A stretch of DNA of 64,000 nucleotides from a virus. Positions 1,202 through 15,593 of the stretch are shown here, in pieces. The stretch covers positions 1-64,000 of IMG/VR virus record IMGVR_UViG_3300037189_021352. One strand, written 5' to 3'. The stretch's first letter is position 1, and every line of letters begins with the position of its first letter. Position numbers and translations under genes: made by a program. Under the pieces are notes generated by a model. The model was not told the origin of the DNA, did not search any database, and worked only from the letters and a program-made list of their open reading frames with translations.

Positions 1202-2746
1202 ATGAAAATATCAATACCCAACAAAGAATCTATTGACATAGAAACTTTGAAAAAGGTATTGGTTACAGGATTAAAAAACACTGCAGGTCCCATCCCTGCA
1301 GTGTTTTCTTTTGAAATACCTGTAACTGATATCTTAAATTTGAAGGAATATGAAATATCTGATAATTTAATAGAGCAAATAGAAACTATACAATTTAAGT
1401 ATATTCATTCAAATGCTATAAAAATAGGTAATTGGTATAACAAAAAAAAATTGCCCAATTTAATTATTGATATGAAAATAGGGATACCTCAAACTTTACA
1501 AGTAAAAAAAATTAAAAATCTTCAATTGGAAGTGGTTAAAGATGAACAAATTATTTTAACAAATAAAATAAACCTTGAAAAAATATCAATTGGTTTTGTA
1601 AATTTAACACAAGATGTTTATAAAACCTGTAATAAATTGCAATATAGAATTGTTTATAAAAACAGTATTACAGATATTATAAAATATGACAACAAGGCAG
1701 ATGCTCTTTATAATTCCCTAGCCTCTGGTGCTCACCTTTGTGTAAGACATAAAATTTCAAATGTCTATAAAGATACACTCGAGGATAGATTGCTTTGTTT
1801 AAAAGAAATAGATAAAAAAATAGAACAAGCTTTTATACATGATAATGAACCAGAGGGTTTGAAGAATTTAATATATTACTGTGTTTATTTTGATAAAGGT
1901 TATACAAATTTGTTAAATTTATCTATAAATTCTATACTACAAAATAGTAAATCTTCTTTTGATATAATGATTATTACAGATGAAGATACTAAAAAAATTG
2001 TAGAAACTTTATCATTTACTAAAAAAATTAAGCCATTATTTTTTATAACAGAAACTCCTGGAGACGGAGTAGATGCGTCTCAAAAGAAAACTCAAATTTA
2101 TAATTGGAACAGAATAAATGATTATAAAAAAATATTATTTTTAGATTGTGATATAGTTTGTACTAAGGATATTAATAAAATATTCAGCTTAGAATACAAA
2201 CCAGGTTTTATATACGGAGCAAAACCCTTGACTTTAGATTACGGAGCACATAAGGGAGTGTGGCACGGTTTTCCTTTTTTAGGACAAGAAATGGTGGATG
2301 AAATGAGAGAAGCTAAACAAATGCCCTTTAATGCTGGACAATTCTTTTTCATTAATACTAAGAGAATGAAATATCATTTTAACAATGTTAATTGGTTGAT
2401 GGAAAATTGGTCAGGTGAATATTTTTTTGAACAAGCCTTTATGTGTTATTATTTCGGCAAGGCATATTCTATTGGAAATAATCTCTTAGACAATCATGTA
2501 ACTTTAATTAATACTACGAATGATATGAAATATATCTTTAATGACAATACACATTTGATTCATTTCATAGCTCCTCCGTTACAAGCAGATAAAAAAATAA
2601 AATTTATTGAAAATTATTTTAAGAAAAATTTAACACTAAAAGTTAAATTTTTAACATTTTTTAGAAAAACTTTTATATATGCCTTATTCAAAAAAATACA
2701 ATCTTTTTTTCATACACATTCCAAAGACCGCAGGGACTACTATTGA
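1202..2746 (+). CDS. Glycosyltransferase, GT8-like, with unknown N-terminal domain
   Basis: The C-terminal part (residues ~225-480) looks like a nucleotide-sugar glycosyltransferase: a Rossmann-like start (NLIYYCVYFDKGY), a DxD-type metal site in LFLDCDIVCTKD (residues ~313-324), then FNAGQFFFIN and a late HFIAPP segment as in GT8 enzymes. The first ~220 residues match nothing I recognise. The start is 3 bp after the preceding stop. A strong terminator-like hairpin lies inside codons ~25-36, so either the hairpin attenuates this gene or the true start is further downstream; the next in-frame ATG is near codon 92. The 3' end overlaps the sulfotransferase gene by 68 bp. Likely role, by inference: glycosylation of fibres or surface glycan. 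Confidence 0.7.
   Translation: MKISIPNKESIDIETLKKVLVTGLKNTAGPIPAVFSFEIPVTDILNLKEYEISDNLIEQIETIQFKYIHSNAIKIGNWYNKKKLPNLIIDMKIGIPQTLQVKKIKNLQLEVVKDEQIILTNKINLEKISIGFVNLTQDVYKTCNKLQYRIVYKNSITDIIKYDNKADALYNSLASGAHLCVRHKISNVYKDTLEDRLLCLKEIDKKIEQAFIHDNEPEGLKNLIYYCVYFDKGYTNLLNLSINSILQNSKSSFDIMIITDEDTKKIVETLSFTKKIKPLFFITETPGDGVDASQKKTQIYNWNRINDYKKILFLDCDIVCTKDINKIFSLEYKPGFIYGAKPLTLDYGAHKGVWHGFPFLGQEMVDEMREAKQMPFNAGQFFFINTKRMKYHFNNVNWLMENWSGEYFFEQAFMCYYFGKAYSIGNNLLDNHVTLINTTNDMKYIFNDNTHLIHFIAPPLQADKKIKFIENYFKKNLTLKVKFLTFFRKTFIYALFKKIQSFFHTHSKDRRDYY
1275..1312 (+). terminator. Strong terminator-like hairpin inside the glycosyltransferase ORF
   Basis: A perfect 13-bp inverted repeat (1275-1287 with 1295-1307, GC-rich core CACTGCAGG) encloses a 7-nt loop and runs into a T-rich tract (TTTTCTTTT). 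It would serve as the terminator of the upstream fibre gene, yet it lies 73 bp into the next ORF. Confidence 0.75.
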
Positions 2747-3299
2747 AAAGTCTTTGGACATGCTAAAAAATGATTGCCTATTTTCAGAAAGAAAATATGA
2801 AGGCAAAAATGTTACAGCTCAGCATTTTACATTGACAGAGATAGAAGAAGTGATGGGCTCTAAAATTAATAACTATGATATTTTTACAATAGTTAGAAAT
2901 CCTTTTGACAGAATTGTATCTGAATATCTTCATATTAAATACAATGATTGGGCCATCTCCTATAAAAATTTATCATTTGAAGATTTTATAGCTAAATCTT
3001 TAAATACATTAACTGAAGAAAGAATCCGTATATTTGATGCTCATCTTGAATTACAATCATCCTTCTTACAAGGCAACAATAACAATCGAGTAAAAATTTT
3101 TAAATATGAAAATTTAAATGAAGTATTTGAATGGCTTAAAATTACAACGAAAGAGTCTCTTGTATTTGGACATGAAAGAAAATCAGACCGAAAACACTAT
3201 AAGGAATATTTTACAAATTCTAACACTGTTGAGAGAGTAATTAACTTTTATGCAAAAGATTTTGAATTATTTGGATATTCTACGCAAATTAAAACTTAA
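2679..3299 (+). CDS. PAPS-dependent sulfotransferase (Sulfotransfer_2-like)
   Basis: The N-terminus carries the 5'-phosphosulfate-binding loop FFIHIPKTAGTT (residues 10-21), and residues ~69-80 carry the 3'-phosphate-binding element IVRNPFDRIVSEY. Both are hallmarks of the Golgi-type carbohydrate sulfotransferase family. At 206 residues it is a compact single domain. It would move sulfate from PAPS to a hydroxyl of a glycan. The gene starts inside the 3' end of the glycosyltransferase gene (68-bp overlap, +1 frame), suggesting translational coupling. Its neighbours are glycosyltransferases and fibre genes, so I infer that it sulfates a glycan built by them. Sulfotransferases are uncommon in phages. 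Confidence 0.8.
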   Translation: MPYSKKYNLFFIHIPKTAGTTIEKSLDMLKNDCLFSERKYEGKNVTAQHFTLTEIEEVMGSKINNYDIFTIVRNPFDRIVSEYLHIKYNDWAISYKNLSFEDFIAKSLNTLTEERIRIFDAHLELQSSFLQGNNNNRVKIFKYENLNEVFEWLKITTKESLVFGHERKSDRKHYKEYFTNSNTVERVINFYAKDFELFGYSTQIKT

Positions 3300-3334
3300 A
3301 TTAAAAATTATATCAAAAATCTCTCTCTCTAAAC

Positions 3335-3342
3335 TATAAGTA
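3335..3342 (+). promoter_or_regulatory. Possible late promoter TATAAGTA
   Basis: This T4-late-type octamer lies 27 nt before the collagen-like fibre gene. The spacing is longer than at most other copies in the window, so support is moderate. Confidence 0.4.
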
Positions 3343-3369
3343 TTAATAGTCTGTTTATTTTAAAATATT

Positions 3370-4821
3370 ATGTCTTTACAAATTGTTTCCAACCTTCAAT
3401 CATCTGGGTCCTTTAACCTTCAAAGTTTAAGTGCGGTTAATTTAACTGCATCTCAAGGTGTTAGTTCTTTAAACGTTTATGCAGCTAATTCTGTTGGTGT
3501 GGGTATTTCCTCTCCTACAGAAAAACTTCATGTAGTTGGTAATGTATTAATTACCGGCAGTTTATCTGCTTTAGGAGATGTTACTCGTTTAGAAACTACG
3601 GTTACAGAAGTCAGTGCCTTGTATATTACCAATACTGGTTCCGGTCCTGCATTGACTGTCACACAAACCGGAGATGCCGCTATTGCAGCTTTTTATGATG
3701 AAAATAATCAAATAAGTTTATATGTAGATGGTCATACAGATAGACCCGGACATGTTGGTGTTGGCACAGAAACTCCTAATGAAAAATTAACTGTTGTTGG
3801 AAATATTTCTGCTACAGGATACATATACGGGGATATAGGCCCTTCCATGGCATTGATAGTTACAGGAGCCTGGAGTTCTTCTGCTTCTTATGCTCCTGGA
3901 TATATTGTGGAATATAACGGTTCTAGTTATATAAGCAAAACCTCAAACAGCAACAAGCAACCGGATACAAATAGCTCTGATTGGAATTTATTTGTTGAAA
4001 AAGGAGATCAAGGTCCTCAAGGTACTCAAGGCAATCAAGGTGCACAAGGAGATCAAGGTTCACAAGGAGATCAAGGCGCTCAGGGAGATCAAGGTGCGCA
4101 AGGAAACCAAGGAGATCAAGGTTCTCAAGGTGATCAAGGAGCTCAAGGAGATCAAGGCGCACAAGGTGCACAAGGAGATCAAGGTTCTCAAGGTGCACAA
4201 GGCGATCAAGGTGCACAAGGCGATCAAGGTGCACAAGGTGATCAAGGTGCACAAGGTGATCAAGGTGCACAAGGTTCACAAGGTGATCAAGGTGCACAAG
4301 GTGATCAAGGTGCTCAAGGAGATCAAGGTGCTCAAGGAGATCAAGGAGCTCAAGGTTCACAAGGTGATCAAGGTGCACAAGGTGATCAAGGATCACAAGG
4401 TGATCAAGGTTCACAAGGTTCACAAGGTGATCAAGGTGCACAGGGTGATCAAGGCGCTCAGGGCTCACAAGGTGATCAAGGTGATCAAGGTGATCAAGGT
4501 TCACAAGGAGATCAAGGAGCTCAAGGAGATCAAGGAGATCAAGGTTCACAAGGTGATCAAGGCGCACAAGGCGCACAAGGAGATCAAGGAGATCAAGGTG
4601 CAGTTGGTTTGATAAAATATGTAGAGACTGTTACTTTAACAAGTGGTTCACAAAACATTACCATCAACCACAATCTTGACACAGATGTTATTCCAGCAGT
4701 TGTAAATGTAACTTCTGGAGATGTGATATTAGTTGCTGCTACTAAATTGAATTCAAATTCTATGGAATTTGCTTTTGAAAATGTTACAGCTGGTGATTAT
4801 AAATTTATTATCTTTGGGTAA
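3370..4821 (+). CDS. Collagen-like tail fibre protein
   Basis: The N-terminal ~150 residues contain two fibre-type segments, GISSPTEKLHVVGNV and GTETPNEKLTVVGNI, typical of phage fibre shafts. A segment around residues 165-205 (SASYAPGYIVEYNGSSYIS) resembles carbohydrate-binding module 5/12. Residues 212-412 are 67 uninterrupted Gly-X-Y triplets, nearly all Gly-(Asp/Ala/Ser)-Gln, followed by a ~70-residue C-terminal domain likely to start trimerisation. Such proteins form homotrimeric fibres. Proline is almost absent from the triplets, so stability must come from Asp/Gln side-chain contacts. The gene is followed directly by an intrinsic terminator and flanked on both sides by glycosyltransferases. 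Confidence 0.85.
   Translation: MSLQIVSNLQSSGSFNLQSLSAVNLTASQGVSSLNVYAANSVGVGISSPTEKLHVVGNVLITGSLSALGDVTRLETTVTEVSALYITNTGSGPALTVTQTGDAAIAAFYDENNQISLYVDGHTDRPGHVGVGTETPNEKLTVVGNISATGYIYGDIGPSMALIVTGAWSSSASYAPGYIVEYNGSSYISKTSNSNKQPDTNSSDWNLFVEKGDQGPQGTQGNQGAQGDQGSQGDQGAQGDQGAQGNQGDQGSQGDQGAQGDQGAQGAQGDQGSQGAQGDQGAQGDQGAQGDQGAQGDQGAQGSQGDQGAQGDQGAQGDQGAQGDQGAQGSQGDQGAQGDQGSQGDQGSQGSQGDQGAQGDQGAQGSQGDQGDQGDQGSQGDQGAQGDQGDQGSQGDQGAQGAQGDQGDQGAVGLIKYVETVTLTSGSQNITINHNLDTDVIPAVVNVTSGDVILVAATKLNSNSMEFAFENVTAGDYKFIIFG
4003..4605 (+). repeat. Collagen-type 9-bp tandem repeat array (67 triplets)
   Basis: This array of 67 nine-base units of the type GGT-GAT-CAA / GGT-GCA-CAA encodes Gly-X-Gln. Its low complexity keeps long frames open in the other phases and on the antisense strand. 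It is likely variable in length and hard to assemble. Confidence 0.95.
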
Positions 4822-4844
4822 TAATTAATTTAAGATTAAAACAT

Positions 4845-4877
4845 AAAAAGAGGTCTCATTATGAGACCTCTTTTTTT
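4845..4877 (+). terminator. Intrinsic terminator
   Basis: The hairpin AGAGGTCTCAT / ATGAGACCTCT is followed by seven T, 24 bp after the stop codon of the collagen-like gene. The A-rich left arm makes it potentially bidirectional. Confidence 0.92.
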
Positions 4878-4926
4878 ATGGTTTAGCTAGTTATATTTTT
4901 ATTATTGGTTATAATTATGTTCTTAA

Positions 4927-6108
4927 ATGAAGCTTTCAATTTTTACGCCGACCAATAATATTCAGTGGTTAGATTTGCCATATCAATCTATATCCAAACA
5001 AATAGATTTAGATTTAAATTTAGATGTAGAATGGATAATTGTTCCAAACAATAATGTAGAAATACCTTCAGAAATACAAAACAAAAGATGGGTTCGTGTG
5101 GTTAGATGTTCTTCTGAATTAAAAAATATAGGAGCTTTAAAACATTTTGCATGTGAACAAGCAACCGGTGATGTCTTTATAGAACTAGATCACGATGACG
5201 AATTGTTGCCTGGTTCATTAAGAAGAATACATGACGAAATGAAAGACAAACCTAATTCATTTTTGTATTCAGACAAAACTGTAAAAAGACATGACAACAA
5301 ACCACAGATATATGGACATGTTTGGGGATGGGAACATTATAATTGGAATGATCAAATAATTAATAAAGGATTTTTACCAGATGCTAGGTCTTTGTGTCAA
5401 ATTTTTTATGCTCCAGATCATGTAAGAGTCTGGTCTCGAGAATCTTATAAACTCTCAGGAGGACATGATAAGTCTTTATTTGTTGGGGATGATCACGATT
5501 TAGTCATTCGAACTTATCTAGCTGGTTCTGAATTTATCTTTATCCAAGAACCTCTTTATAATTATTTTATTCACGGAAATAATTCTTGGTTGCAAAATTG
5601 TGACAAGGTTCAAAAACAACAACATAATAATACTGAAAAACATCTGAGACCTTTGATTAAAGAATGGTGTAGACGAGAAAATTTGTCGATTATAAATTAT
5701 CCTTCTGAGAAATTTACGGAAGCACAACCAAACAGTATTGGATGTATTATAGCTAATGATGTTATAGCTTCTATATCAGCTGGAGCTTCGGTGATAGAAT
5801 TCATGAATAAGTGTTATGAACTATTGGTTCCTGGTGGTTGGTTGCAAATTGATGTACCCTCTACAGACGGAAGAGGAGCATTTTGTGATCCTATGCATGT
5901 GTCTTTTTGGAATGAATTAAGTTTTAGATATTATACTAATAAAAACTTTTCTAAATTTATTCCACAATACAAAGGAAGATTTCAACAAGTTATTTTAAAA
6001 ACTCACATGCCAAGTAAATGGCATCAAGATAATAATGTGCCATATGTTCGATCAGATATGTGTGCCATTAAAAAGAATCATCGTTTGGCTGGGTATTGTT
6101 ATATTTAA
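4927..6108 (+). CDS. GT2 glycosyltransferase fused to a partial methyltransferase
   Basis: Residues 1-~245 form a GT-A family 2 glycosyltransferase: the start LSIFTPTNN, the acidic metal site ELDHDDELLPGS (residues ~92-103) and a later GDDHD. From ~residue 262 the sequence changes to the second half of a class I SAM methyltransferase: IIANDVIASI, then CYELLVPGGWLQIDVPSTDG and a DPMH/FW element. The SAM-binding motif I (GxGxG) expected upstream is not present, so the methyltransferase half looks truncated. The family knowledge is GT2 transfer from a nucleotide sugar; fibre or surface-glycan decoration is inferred from neighbours. The next gene starts immediately after the stop codon. Confidence 0.75.
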   Translation: MKLSIFTPTNNIQWLDLPYQSISKQIDLDLNLDVEWIIVPNNNVEIPSEIQNKRWVRVVRCSSELKNIGALKHFACEQATGDVFIELDHDDELLPGSLRRIHDEMKDKPNSFLYSDKTVKRHDNKPQIYGHVWGWEHYNWNDQIINKGFLPDARSLCQIFYAPDHVRVWSRESYKLSGGHDKSLFVGDDHDLVIRTYLAGSEFIFIQEPLYNYFIHGNNSWLQNCDKVQKQQHNNTEKHLRPLIKEWCRRENLSIINYPSEKFTEAQPNSIGCIIANDVIASISAGASVIEFMNKCYELLVPGGWLQIDVPSTDGRGAFCDPMHVSFWNELSFRYYTNKNFSKFIPQYKGRFQQVILKTHMPSKWHQDNNVPYVRSDMCAIKKNHRLAGYCYI

Positions 6109-6741
6109 ATGCAACCTGTAGTAGCTATTATAACTCCAACCTATAACAGATCATTAGAGGTATTGGATCGGTGTATAAGGTCTGTTCAGTGGCAAAACTA
6201 TGGCATAAACAATATAAAACATTTCATATGTCATGATGGTCCAAATCCAGAAAAGGAAAAATATGAAAAATATTTTTTAGATAATCAATGGTCTAATACT
6301 TTTTATTCTGAATTAGAAGTTAACACAAATTCTTATGGAGCCGGTGTGCGTCAATATATTCTAGATAATCTAAAAGCTGAAGAAGTAAAATATATAGTAC
6401 ATTTGGATGACGATAATTTAATATTTCCAGAATTTGTTTTTGAACATGTTAACATTTTAGAAAACAATGAAGATGTATATTTTTCCATATGTAAAATTAT
6501 TCACATGGGCCCTCTGCCTTCTAAATTAGGAAATCCGCCACAGATAATTAACGGCACTCCTCCAGTATTTCAAAATATAGATACATTGCAAATTATGGTA
6601 AAAACTAGTGCTATGCAAACTTGTGGTTGGACTCAAAATAGGGGTAAACAAGGGTATTGTAATGACGGATACACTTATGAACGTCTAGGTTTAATGTTTA
6701 AATGGATAGAATTGCCTAGATTGTTGGCTGTACACCTATAA
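6109..6741 (+). CDS. GT2 family glycosyltransferase
   Basis: This compact GT-A enzyme has the family start VVAIITPTYNR (residues 4-14), a base-contact region with FICHDGPN and the metal-binding DDD in IVHLDDDNLIFPEF (residues ~101-114). The C-terminal third contains the acceptor-side motif NDGYTYERLG. At 210 residues it has no extra domain. Its ATG follows the TAA of the preceding glycosyltransferase without a gap, so the two are translated as one operon. The acceptor cannot be told from the sequence. Confidence 0.82.
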   Translation: MQPVVAIITPTYNRSLEVLDRCIRSVQWQNYGINNIKHFICHDGPNPEKEKYEKYFLDNQWSNTFYSELEVNTNSYGAGVRQYILDNLKAEEVKYIVHLDDDNLIFPEFVFEHVNILENNEDVYFSICKIIHMGPLPSKLGNPPQIINGTPPVFQNIDTLQIMVKTSAMQTCGWTQNRGKQGYCNDGYTYERLGLMFKWIELPRLLAVHL

Positions 6742-6755: not shown

Positions 6756-6992
6756 ATGAGAATTGTAATACAACCAGAAGTGGCTATTGAATTGCCGGAA
6801 GTCAGGGTATTGGCTGTTAGAGATCAAATACATGACAAAAAAATAATAGCCAAGATTAATGGATTACCAAGAGGAGTTGTATTGTGGGGACCAGCTGAAT
6901 ATGACTCTCCCGAAGCTCAACATTGGACCAATGAATCTGCTAATGACAGGGCATGGCACGTTCTTCAAAAAAATCCAGTGCCTTTTGAATAG
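6756..6992 (+). CDS. Hypothetical protein, 78 aa
   Basis: This small soluble protein has no signal peptide or membrane segment. It begins MRIVIQPEVAIEL and contains a conserved-looking core, GVVLWGPAEYDSPEAQHWT, with a Trp-rich C-terminal half. I do not recognise a family. It has its own late-type promoter with 5-nt spacing and precedes the tmRNA gene, and ends 35 bp before it. Confidence 0.6.
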   Translation: MRIVIQPEVAIELPEVRVLAVRDQIHDKKIIAKINGLPRGVVLWGPAEYDSPEAQHWTNESANDRAWHVLQKNPVPFE

Positions 6993-7027: not shown

Positions 7028-7454
7028 GGGGGCGTATTGGTTTCGACTGAGCGCTGAAAACTTTAGTTGCAATCCGAGGAAGTCTGGTTGGCCTCGTTAA
7101 AAAGCTGGACAAACAAATAAATGCAACTGATAATACAGAAGCACTCTTAGCTGAAGCAACTCACATCATCAACAACTTCGAGGACTACCTCGCAGAAGAA
7201 GAGATGTACGAGCTCGCAGCCTAAAAAACAGAAATGGATCCTATTAAAATTTCTGGAGTAACGTAAGTAGGTTTGAGCAAGATCGTGAAACTCTTTAAAA
7301 ACAAATCGAGAGTAGCTGGTAGACTTCGCGCCAGCAGGTAAGACTAAAAAAATAGCTAACTACCTAAGGTCTAAAGAAAGTTAGCACAATTATGATTGTC
7401 GACGCTAGAGTCTAAGTTTTCAGGACAGGGGTTCAACTCCCCTCGCCTCCACCA
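7028..7454 (+). ncRNA. ssrA: tmRNA (transfer-messenger RNA), one-piece, phage-encoded
   Basis: The 5' end GGGGGCG (7028-7034) pairs with CGCCTCC (7444-7450) to form the alanine-tRNA-like acceptor stem, followed by A and an encoded CCA (7452-7454). A T-arm with loop TTCAACT (7432-7438) sits between AGGGG and CCCCT. Just inside the 5' end is the tmRNA signature TTTCGAC. Helix 2 is formed by GAAAACTTTAG (from ~7057) with CTAAGTTTTC near 7412-7421. The first pseudoknot stem CCGAGG / CCTCG lies at ~7075-7095, as in bacterial tmRNAs. A resume GCA codon at 7123 opens a 33-codon tag frame ending TAA at 7222-7224; the downstream part forms further structured elements. The 427-nt RNA would rescue stalled ribosomes and tag nascent peptides for proteolysis. 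Confidence 0.96.
7123..7224 (+). other. tmRNA tag-peptide reading frame (33 codons)
   Basis: From the GCA resume codon the tag reads ATDNTEALLAEA, then THIINNFEDYLAEEEM, then YELAA and stop. The C-terminal ELAA resembles ClpXP-recognised tag ends (LAA). The length of 33 residues is about three times that of the E. coli tag, and the codons favour C-ending forms unlike the surrounding phage genes. Confidence 0.88.
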
Positions 7455-12647: not shown

Positions 12648-12962
12648 ATGGATGAAGTCTTTATCATCAATGAATCTTTAAAGGATCAATTGGTTCAAAA
12701 TTTTGGTATCACTTATGCAAAAACCATTTTTCATAAAAACGGAAGTGTATATTTAAGTGATCCTTTTTATGAAACAGAAGCAAGATGGCCAGATTATCAA
12801 GCTTTTAAAAATTTAAAATGGGAAGAAGCAGAAGACTTGGGTGAAGTTTTATATAAAACCAAAAATGAAATAGAAAAAGCTGGTGGACAAATGACTCAAC
12901 CCATATTTGAAATTTTAAATAATAAACCACAACTTGTGTGGGCTGTGTTTTTAAAGAGTTGA
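12648..12962 (+). CDS. Hypothetical protein, 104 aa
   Basis: The protein is soluble, with an aromatic-rich centre (YETEARWPDYQAFKNLKWEEAED) and a C-terminal strand LVWAVFLKS. It starts 3 bp after the preceding gene and its last 12 bp overlap the end of the convergent 880-residue gene. No family was recognised. Confidence 0.55.
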   Translation: MDEVFIINESLKDQLVQNFGITYAKTIFHKNGSVYLSDPFYETEARWPDYQAFKNLKWEEAEDLGEVLYKTKNEIEKAGGQMTQPIFEILNNKPQLVWAVFLKS

Positions 12963-15593
12963 TTTGAAAAAGTCTTTAAAGTTTTCATTTAAAGGCAAGC
13001 CAAGTCCTTCTCTAGTTGCCTGATATAAAGTTTTGCCATTAACTGTTATATCATTAGAAACACCTGTGGCTTGTTGAAATCCTGTCTCGTTTTTTTCTTC
13101 TGCAAATTTACGAGCCAAGGAACCAGAAATGCCTTCAACGGCAGATACACCTGCATCTGCATTTCTAGCACCACTACTTTCAAAACTTAATGCTACAATT
13201 TCTCTACCATCAGCTTTGCGTATATCTGCTCTATTCCAATTTGTGAGAAGAGTCTTCATATTTTCTTCTTCTTTACCACTCAAGCGATCATCACCAGCAA
13301 CAAATACTATATTTCTAAATTTCTCATTATACAAATATTTTGCAGCAGCCAGTACTGATGACATAGGTTGAGGCACTATATAAGAAGCAAATTGTGGGTA
13401 TATTTTTTTAATAAACTCCCGTTTGGTGTCTATATCTAATGGATCAGTTTTTTTATTTTGAGAAGTGGAAAGAAATATGAAAGTGTTGCGGCCACCTATT
13501 TCCACTGCCTTTTGCATCAATAATCCATGACCAATAGTGGGAGGATTCATACGCCCAAAACAAAAAGCTGCTACTGGTAATGTTCTTTTATGTTTTACAG
13601 ATTCCAAATCTTGAGGAGTATCTTTTCTTTTTTCAAAGTTAGCTTTACTAAAAACCAATCGATCTATTAATTTAAGTTTATCTTTACCACTGCCAAAAAC
13701 ATACCCCTCATGAGAATCTACTTCTCCGATGAGAGCTTGAATAGGTAACCCGGTTTGTTGCAGATCAATTTGCCTTTTAATATTAAGTTTAAGTTCTGTT
13801 AAGCTAGCCCAAATTGCCCATATACCATACAAACCAGCAGCACCGTCTGTGTAAAGCCATCCATTTTTATTATCACCTAAAAGTTTTAACGTAGCTTTAG
13901 GACTTAATTTCCTTTCCAAATATTGTAAAAATCTAGGAATGATGTCTGTTGCAATATTATTTTGTTCTAACATTGCAGTGATAAATGTGGTCATATTACC
14001 CAACAAACCTTTAGCTTTAATTACTTCAAGTTCTTTTAAAAACTTTTCAACTTCTTCTTTATTGTCATTTATAGTTTTTTTGACATCTGCAACTAAACTT
14101 GTGGGTAGTGTTACTTTAGGTTCTTCTAATAATTCACCAGTTAAAAATGCTACACCTTCATTTTGTTTTAAACCTCGCAAACCTTTTAGAGGCACATCAT
14201 CTCCACCAAAACTTGAAATAAAAGTATGCACTGCGATACCACCAACACTGCGAGAAATGTCTCTACCAGTATCAGAATCTATTTTAACTTTGTATTTTAC
14301 AAGATTTGGTTCAAATACATAATAATCTTTATCTGTATCTGGTACACCAGACCACATAAGATCTCCGAAGAAAAATTGATCTGCAACGTGTGGTGTGGCT
14401 CTTTTAAGAACCGGTACTAATAACGCTTCTGCTCTCCACAAACTTTCTCTAACAGTATTTCTAGATTCGTCATAATTCTTGATAGTGGTAAAATTTAATT
14501 TACCATTAATCATTTTATCATACATGTGTTTATCTACGAATAGAAATTTTCCATTTGGATTTTGTTTAGAGGGTAGTTCTAACCAACCAAAAATTAAAGC
14601 CGGAAAACCATCCCATTTTAAAGAAATTGTTTTACCATTTTTTGCCAAAGAGGTTATTTCTTTAAAGGCTTTCATAGCACCCTCTATACCACCAGTAAAA
14701 ATACTATCTTCCAAATGTTCTATGCCTTCTTCTATTATGGCGCTTTCGTTTTGAGTGTAAAATTGTTTGATGGCGTTCCATTTTTCTGGTTGATCTATTA
14801 ATTTATTCTTAATACCACTGAGACTGGCCAAGTCTCTTCCGGTGGCTGTTGGGCCTAATAATCTTTTTGCCATCTCATCTTTATTATTAGTAATCACTTC
14901 ACCGGTGTCTCGATTTACCAATCCACGATCTGGACTATACTGTAAGTTTCCTTTTCCGGTTTTGGGGTCTACGGTATCACTTGCCAATATTGTTATTGCC
15001 GGGTAAATGTTGTTCCATAGATCCCCTCCTGTCATGCCCGGATCTTTTGAAAAGTCATGGGTGTGTAAAGGCCAAGCCTGGCGCGGCCTTATAATCAAAT
15101 CAACAGAATGATTTTTTCCGTTAGCTGAATAATTTACCGTTAAAGCACTAGAACCAAAAGTTGTATGGTAACCATTATCGGTCATATATTTTGCTAGTTC
15201 CCATCTGCTAGCCGCTAATTGTTCTTTTTGTTTTTTGATCGGATCAGCTAAAATGGTTGCCAGTGCTTTTGGCCCTGTTGGAGTTTTTACCGTTGGGTTA
15301 TGCTCATCTGTATATTCTTTAATATCTTTAGGAAACGCCTTTACTAATTCAGTCGGATCTATTAAAATGTCAATGTCCCCAGAATCTTTTCTACCACCTC
15401 CTCCATAAAGATGATCTGGGTCAAAACTACCAGCACCCCCAGCACCCCAGTATGAATCCAGTTCTGCTTTTTGAAGAATTGGTTGCAGTTTAGATTTAGC
15501 TGTTAAAAAATCTTGTTCATTGACTCGAGAAATTTCGACTCCTTGTTTTGCCAAAACTTTGGCTGCTTCTGAGAAAAACTCTTTGAAATTCAT
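12951..15593 (-). CDS. Triple nucleotidyltransferase protein: Pol-beta-type, KxDG ligase-type and HxGH-type domains
   Basis: Three unrelated nucleotidyl-transfer folds appear in series. (1) Residues ~60-170: Pol-beta-type site, GGGGRKDSGDIDILID with Asp73/Asp75 and a third acid in SVDLII (Asp165). (2) Residues ~320-645: covalent ligase/capping fold with motif I KWDG (Lys326, Asp328), FFFGDLMW, motif IV EGYVF (629-633) and motif V Lys639/Lys641. (3) Residues ~672-830: cytidylyl/adenylyltransferase fold with FCFGRMNPPTIGH (TxGH variant, His689) and ISGSLAR (822-828). The N-terminus MNFKEFFSEAA resembles T4 capsid-targeting leaders; the C-terminus repeats NFKDFF. A late-type octamer lies 13 nt upstream. 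Possible roles: RNA/tRNA repair, NAD-linked chemistry or nucleotidylation of host targets. The domain calls are firm on motifs; the function is open. Confidence 0.8.
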   Translation of the reverse strand: MNFKEFFSEAAKVLAKQGVEISRVNEQDFLTAKSKLQPILQKAELDSYWGAGGAGSFDPDHLYGGGGRKDSGDIDILIDPTELVKAFPKDIKEYTDEHNPTVKTPTGPKALATILADPIKKQKEQLAASRWELAKYMTDNGYHTTFGSSALTVNYSANGKNHSVDLIIRPRQAWPLHTHDFSKDPGMTGGDLWNNIYPAITILASDTVDPKTGKGNLQYSPDRGLVNRDTGEVITNNKDEMAKRLLGPTATGRDLASLSGIKNKLIDQPEKWNAIKQFYTQNESAIIEEGIEHLEDSIFTGGIEGAMKAFKEITSLAKNGKTISLKWDGFPALIFGWLELPSKQNPNGKFLFVDKHMYDKMINGKLNFTTIKNYDESRNTVRESLWRAEALLVPVLKRATPHVADQFFFGDLMWSGVPDTDKDYYVFEPNLVKYKVKIDSDTGRDISRSVGGIAVHTFISSFGGDDVPLKGLRGLKQNEGVAFLTGELLEEPKVTLPTSLVADVKKTINDNKEEVEKFLKELEVIKAKGLLGNMTTFITAMLEQNNIATDIIPRFLQYLERKLSPKATLKLLGDNKNGWLYTDGAAGLYGIWAIWASLTELKLNIKRQIDLQQTGLPIQALIGEVDSHEGYVFGSGKDKLKLIDRLVFSKANFEKRKDTPQDLESVKHKRTLPVAAFCFGRMNPPTIGHGLLMQKAVEIGGRNTFIFLSTSQNKKTDPLDIDTKREFIKKIYPQFASYIVPQPMSSVLAAAKYLYNEKFRNIVFVAGDDRLSGKEEENMKTLLTNWNRADIRKADGREIVALSFESSGARNADAGVSAVEGISGSLARKFAEEKNETGFQQATGVSNDITVNGKTLYQATREGLGLPLNENFKDFFKSTL

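Follow-up and report, generated by a model that had tools for sequence, protein, structure and literature searches.

A one-piece phage tmRNA with a 33-residue tag, and related long-tag tmRNAs in unrelated large phages

The stretch of DNA analysed here, referred to as the window, comprises the first 64,000 nucleotides of a virus record of 128,659 bases (IMGVR_UViG_3300037189_021352), and it carries on its plus strand a tmRNA gene encoding a 33-residue tag. ARAGORN and the Rfam model RF00023 gave identical ends for this gene, which is complete and in one piece, and RF00023 was matched over the full model (1-374) at 134 bits (E 3e-52; gathering score 47). A first-pass annotation had recognised the parts of a complete tmRNA (acceptor stem with encoded CCA, T-arm, TTTCGAC signature, helix 2 and first pseudoknot) and an unusually long, acidic tag of 33 residues opening at a resume GCA, and it had named the covariance search as the check that could overturn this reading. 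These parts are all present, the long acidic tag was borne out by ARAGORN, by Rfam and by a family of related loci, and the search neither moved the resume codon nor shortened the tag. The features are as follows.

7028-7454, plus strand: complete one-piece tmRNA gene (ARAGORN; RF00023)
7028-7034, plus strand: 5' strand of the acceptor stem, GGGGGCG, including G3:U70, paired with 7444-7450 (Rfam alignment, acceptor check)
7041-7047, plus strand: TTTCGAC signature of the tRNA-like domain (sequence; Rfam alignment)
7118-7122, plus strand: TAAAT ahead of the resume codon, its T at -5 and A at -4 corresponding to E. coli U85/A86 (family comparison; PMC2481249)
7123-7221, plus strand: tag reading frame of 33 codons, ATDNTEALLAEATHIINNFEDYLAEEEMYELAA (ARAGORN, Rfam; E 9e-13 to a family profile built from rows that include the window)
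7135-7188, plus strand: tag residues 5-22, conserved module, predicted helical (AlphaFold2; alignments)
7150-7220, plus strand: long hairpin within the reading frame, an extended helix 5 with coding sequence in each arm; inner stem 7179-7183/7188-7192 (fold, shuffle z -2.3, Rfam)
7213-7221, plus strand: C-terminal LAA, an ordinary ClpXP-type degron end (sequence; common in the family)
7222-7224, plus strand: stop codon TAA, adjoining the 3' arm of the hairpin (sequence; fold)
7427-7443, plus strand: T-arm, AGGGG-TTCAACT-CCCCT (sequence; Rfam)
7444-7454, plus strand: 3' acceptor strand CGCCTCC, discriminator A and encoded CCA (sequence; Rfam)

The acceptor stem is of 7 bp and is followed by A73. 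The alanine identity element G3:U70 was found in the window and in 27/27 family members, and A73 in 26 of the 27. The tag closes in ELAA, an end of the hydrophobic/Ala-Ala degron type, and most of the 46 family tags likewise end in AA.

A 78-aa ORF of no known family lies just upstream of the tmRNA (6756-6992), and a similar 78-aa ORF precedes the tmRNA of the phage record G001 (40128-39892). Further ahead of the tmRNA (1202-6741), a cluster of genes resembling glycosyltransferases of families 8 and 2, together with one resembling a sulfotransferase, stands beside a tail fibre gene, and at 12951-15593 the window encodes an 880-aa protein that has DUF6267 and whose C-terminal part weakly resembles a cytidylyltransferase.

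The tag frame opens at GCA (7123) and is closed by TAA at 7222. Ahead of the resume codon the window has T(U) at -5 followed by A at -4, and TA occurs there in 48 of 53 family members; the equivalent positions of E. coli, U85/A86, control the choice of frame in tmRNA (PMC2481249). Across 53 distinct tag DNAs the tag frame was always 31-35 codons long, while the +1 frame ranged from 5 to 51 codons and the -1 frame had a median of 3. A frame open by chance was ruled out by the family and by its dN/dS.

The one-piece tmRNA of bacteria (SsrA, RF00023) shares with the phage tmRNA the tRNA-like domain, G3:U70, the resume alanine codon, pseudoknots and the Ala-Ala tag end. The phage tags of 31-35 residues, however, differ from those of 9-22 aa given for 18 bacteria (PMC12493166), from the commonest length of 10 aa in a recent tmRNA database (PMC11915505), and from the 9-21 residues in the eight bacterial genomes that we read. 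Most viral tmRNA tags in a pattern-based sample were of 8-15 residues. The tag of the window is thus about three times the usual length, although we claim no record of length for it.

This length lies exactly at a ceiling of the standard tool, since ARAGORN reported no tag of more than 33 aa. None of the complete tags of 34-35 residues in the tested set was reported whole, these being either shortened (to ADEEMLLAA) or missed, and the same ceiling was met when the window tag was lengthened in silico; some tags of 32-33 residues were likewise missed. A shorter tag with a later resume codon was rejected as a reading, as the 9-aa ADEEMLLAA returned by ARAGORN for 35-aa members reflects the length limit of the tool, which was reproduced in silico. 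The huge-phage survey of Al-Shayeb et al. used ARAGORN (PMC7162821), as did the main search of the database mentioned above (PMC11915505), and annotations and surveys of this kind probably under-report the long-tag class.

In a first scan, a contig of 227 kb (L080) was found to carry a tag identical to that of the window, and one of 119 kb (L043) a tag that is also of 33 residues but diverged. DNA pattern searches, in which the tmRNA signature was combined with part of the tag motif, yielded about 38 phage tmRNAs, and a GGATTCGAC version yielded about 29 more; as the pattern fixes five codons (EA, I/F/L and NN), the frequency of the family and the conservation at these positions are biased. 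In all, 66 phage loci with a complete tag were obtained, the window included, and these encode 46 distinct peptides of 31-35 aa, all with a net charge of -7 to -12 and with the consensus AEDNT-LLAEAEYIFNNADEFL--EEE-LLAA. The terminal LAA is present in 33 of the 46; the other ends include AAV, in three tags, and LEA, LTA, VVA or LVA, in a few. The window carries the module of the class, LL-A-E-A-x-x-I-x-N-N, within a tag of the class length. All 16 members tested against Rfam were tmRNAs, and L149, L156, L080, L043 and L088 were also confirmed. No full-length DNA match to the window tmRNA or to a tmRNA of the second phage lineage described below was found in 50,697 phage records, nor any tag match by tblastn with the low-complexity filter on. 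In the open literature, subscription papers and preprints aside, we found no paper describing the class, and the long-tag tmRNA appears to be a genuine phage form of a familiar system that has escaped notice.

Some further loci deserve mention. At L088:5230-5662 a tmRNA has another 33-aa tag, AKAIANAVKSVKSFMTNVAEFFSFENELCLAAA, which is neutral rather than acidic and weakly resembles the family profile (18/1000 shuffles were as good). In L173 a group I intron (2569-2803; RF00028, 83 bits) splits the T-loop region of a phage tmRNA, and the tail of the L172 tmRNA has an insert that begins like this intron. Group I introns are known in bacterial tmRNA (PMC11915505); the case of L173 is a phage record.

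The five codons fixed by the search pattern were excluded from the analysis of selection for that reason. Over the 21-codon module without them, pS was 0.68 and pN 0.24 (dN/dS ~0.17), so that the tag peptide has been kept while synonymous sites are near saturation, and the leucine at -2 was invariant in 51/51 distinct sequences through five different codons. From these comparisons the tag peptide is very probably under selection.

The first-pass annotation had also remarked that the tag is rich in C-ending codons, unlike the phage genes, and this held on counting. C-ending codons make up 13 of the 18 NNY codons of the window tag against 20% genome-wide, a bias equalled by only 2 of 6947 33-codon gene windows, and CTC, which is 4% of the leucine codons of the genome, recurs in the tag. 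RNA structure had been proposed as one source of these codons, and both a synonymous-shuffle test and covariation support it. On folding the reading frame, the hairpin of the window was found to begin near residue 10 and to reach the last codons, and it was only moderately better than in peptide-preserving codon shuffles (z -2.3). The 53 tags gave a mean z of -2.04 in the same comparison; 26 of them lay below -2, and +2 was exceeded by none. The largest gap-free group (n=19) had a consensus energy of -15.0 kcal against -9.5 +/- 1.1 for shuffles, of which 0/100 were as low; its fold has 22 pairs with 94% of cells paired, and six pairs show compensatory changes, partly at synonymous third positions (for example T:A to A:T between two alanine codons). 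Two other gap-free groups (n=12 and n=10) gave smaller hairpins, with 0/100 and 1/100 shuffles as low. The shuffle null breaks the relatedness of the sequences, and the significance of these values may be overstated. The long hairpin was demonstrated as a consensus in the one gap-free subgroup of 19, RNAalifold giving a hairpin of four pairs on the whole gapped alignment, and the window lacks a small L-L-A-E-A hairpin that is present in most members.

The Rfam alignment places helix 5 across the central part of the window tag, and the stop codon comes after it. In the bacterial one-piece tmRNA the stop usually lies in or near the helix 5 loop, whereas the phage frame crosses the helix; a stop in the terminal loop was seen in 22 of 61 ordinary tmRNAs as against 3 of 53 in the long-tag family. 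The window tmRNA has no stop in or by this loop, a placement that is usual but variable and does not define membership of the tmRNA class. We are thus highly confident that the tag frame passes through an enlarged helix 5 and returns on its other strand. Such a path would explain both the length of the tag and its C-ending codons, which appear to follow from RNA pairing (CTC opposite GAG, for example), and it makes the second half of the tag partly the complement of the first. An origin of the codons in a less AT-rich host, also suggested at first pass, is not needed to explain them, although one member phage (G040) does have a GC content of 52%.

These observations bear on a reading in which selection acts on the RNA hairpin, because it stabilises the tmRNA or helps it to fold, and the added residues are simply whatever both strands encode. 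The significant hairpin, its synonymous covariation and a codon bias accounted for by pairing speak for it. It does not sit well with a dN/dS of 0.17 at near-saturated synonymous sites, with the use of five codons for the invariant leucine, with the first residues, DNT, which are largely conserved as well and lie outside the main hairpin, or with the retention of a C-terminal AA in most tags, and we consider it rather unlikely. Since one peptide is encoded by the two strands of a single RNA helix, selection on RNA and on protein can be separated here.

The long tag was found in at least three unrelated lineages of large phages, which were delimited by a TerL profile, the TerL of the second lineage, proteome comparison, and the capsid and portal genes of G040. 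The first lineage (G000, which is the record of the window, G001, G011 and G055) is a single T4-like phage family by terminase, sheath and polymerase, to which G002 is distantly related, sharing 26 proteins at 30%, and the second (G050, G043, G052, G061, G046 and G065) has a different terminase. G040, of 211 kb, has almost no proteins in common with the others and has portal and capsid families of its own. The tmRNA of the second-lineage phage G061 (L183) nests among those of the first lineage and shares 85% identity with the one in G055 (L176), which indicates that the tmRNA gene moves between phage lineages. In L160 and L043 the tag module is kept even though the tmRNA bodies have an identity of only about 50% to that of the window. 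These results support a family that is maintained at both the peptide and the RNA level and is exchanged between unrelated large phages. G000, at 128.7 kb, is probably partial, its relatives having genomes of more than 200 kb, and genes that seem absent may lie outside the record; it has no tRNA genes, and its relatives carry 14 to 20.

Alternatively, the long tag could belong to the tmRNA of an unsampled bacterial group, from which unrelated phages infecting it took up the gene. Bacterial-type phage tmRNAs are known (PMC9004378), the same tag is carried by three unrelated lineages, and the first two have some genes in common, as phages of the same host would. A host tmRNA with the same tag, which the first-pass annotation had named as a refutation, was however not found: a GGTTTCGAC pattern gave 11 matches in 84,980 bacterial genomes, none of them a tmRNA tag, in a search that covers GGTTTCGAC bodies only. 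While the family tag profile recovered 12/12 phage records tried, it found none in 395, 398 and 386 genomes from the phyla of Bacteroidota (Belliella), gammaproteobacterial (Arenicellaceae) and cyanobacterial genomes, the three samples to which the bacterial scan for GGATTCGAC bodies was confined. The GC content of the member phages, at 31 to 52%, also speaks against a common host source, which we regard as unlikely. As a clue to the host, the nearest phage genes were too distant (mostly ~25-35% identity).

AlphaFold2, run on the family alignment, predicted helices at residues 5-17 and 19-22, with a pLDDT of ~94 for residues 1-20, the tail being floppy; as this is a 33-residue peptide with a pTM of 0.43, the model supports helix propensity only. 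No credible relative was found among solved structures. Mimicry of a phage protein was discarded, as the only match of the tag profile in eight sets of phage ORFs was the frame that overlies a tmRNA itself. One could envisage the extension as no more than a lengthened, unstructured handle by which AAA+ unfoldases take hold of compact truncated proteins more easily, whatever its sequence, and the tail past residue 22, predicted to be flexible and acidic, would suit this. The strong conservation and predicted helicity of residues 5-22 make such a handle quite improbable.

We instead consider it probable, on the features of the gene and its tag, that the phage tmRNA is functional and belongs to a long-tag class specific to phages, in which an LAA degron would be joined to a possible helical docking element. 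The host alanyl-tRNA synthetase would charge the phage tmRNA, in which G3:U70 and A73 are kept, and during infection host SmpB and EF-Tu would then deliver it to ribosomes that have stalled on broken mRNAs. The use of host SmpB is suggested by conserved determinants and by the search of the phage record (G000), in which no SmpB was found, nor in G001, G002 or the 7.9-kb G003, G000 being probably partial. The ribosome would resume at GCA 7123 as in the known pathway and read up and down the long hairpin, which has no stop in its loop, to give a tag of 31-35 residues in which a putative helix-forming conserved segment (~residues 5-22) is followed by a flexible, acidic stretch that terminates in LAA. 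This terminus suggests Clp proteases, and it is likely that the tagged products are still routed to host Clp and degraded. More tentatively, the conserved helical segment may serve for docking to, or delivery to, a host protease or adaptor, which would improve the clearance of abortive proteins during infection.

The first-pass suggestion that the tag escapes ClpX found no support, as the terminal LAA is kept in 33/46 tags. The wider proposal that tagged products are sent to another protease, or protected, does have a precedent in the longer tag of Mesoplasma florum, which changed its protease partner and is read by Lon (PMC9382460), and some family tags have other ends (AAV in three; LEA, LTA, VVA or LVA in a few). 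The Mesoplasma tag, however, ends in NYAFA and is without a Clp-type LAA end, while the end of most phage tags is the one recognised by ClpX and ClpA (PMC12493166), and a changed fate thus seems improbable to us.

Separately, proteins of the CLP_protease family occur in G065, G046 and G002 (L339, L340 and L341, one with a weaker score), and these could be head maturation proteases or ClpP.

Phage-encoded tmRNAs are also known from Bacillus phage G, mycobacteriophages such as Bxz1 and Wildcat, Streptomyces phage Wofford and Methylophilales phage Melnitz (PMC4131195, PMC9004378), although that of Melnitz is in two pieces. The 22-aa tag of Chlamydia trachomatis, AEPKAECEIISFADLEDLRVAA, is also long and acidic and ends in VAA (PMC12493166); it was rejected as a relative, its similarity to the phage profile being no better than that of shuffles (703/1000). 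The upkeep of the translation machinery and the recycling of host proteins have been proposed as general reasons for a phage to carry tmRNA (PMC9004378). A conserved, transferable tag unlike the bacterial tags seen here permits a direct comparison of phage and host tags, and with it a way into the question of why phages carry tmRNA. A more speculative and somewhat doubtful extension of the favoured reading is that of a phage-evolved two-part tag, with a helical targeting domain and a degron encoded by both strands of helix 5, which may be spreading among unrelated large phages and may place trans-translation in infected cells under phage control through a recruited protease, adaptor or phage partner. 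A search for a tag reader common to all three lineages found none, a few proteins being shared by the first two but none by all three. A 386-aa protein of unknown function in G050 (133705-134865) has homologues in G001, G011 and G055, and these are 44-53% identical across two otherwise unrelated lineages.
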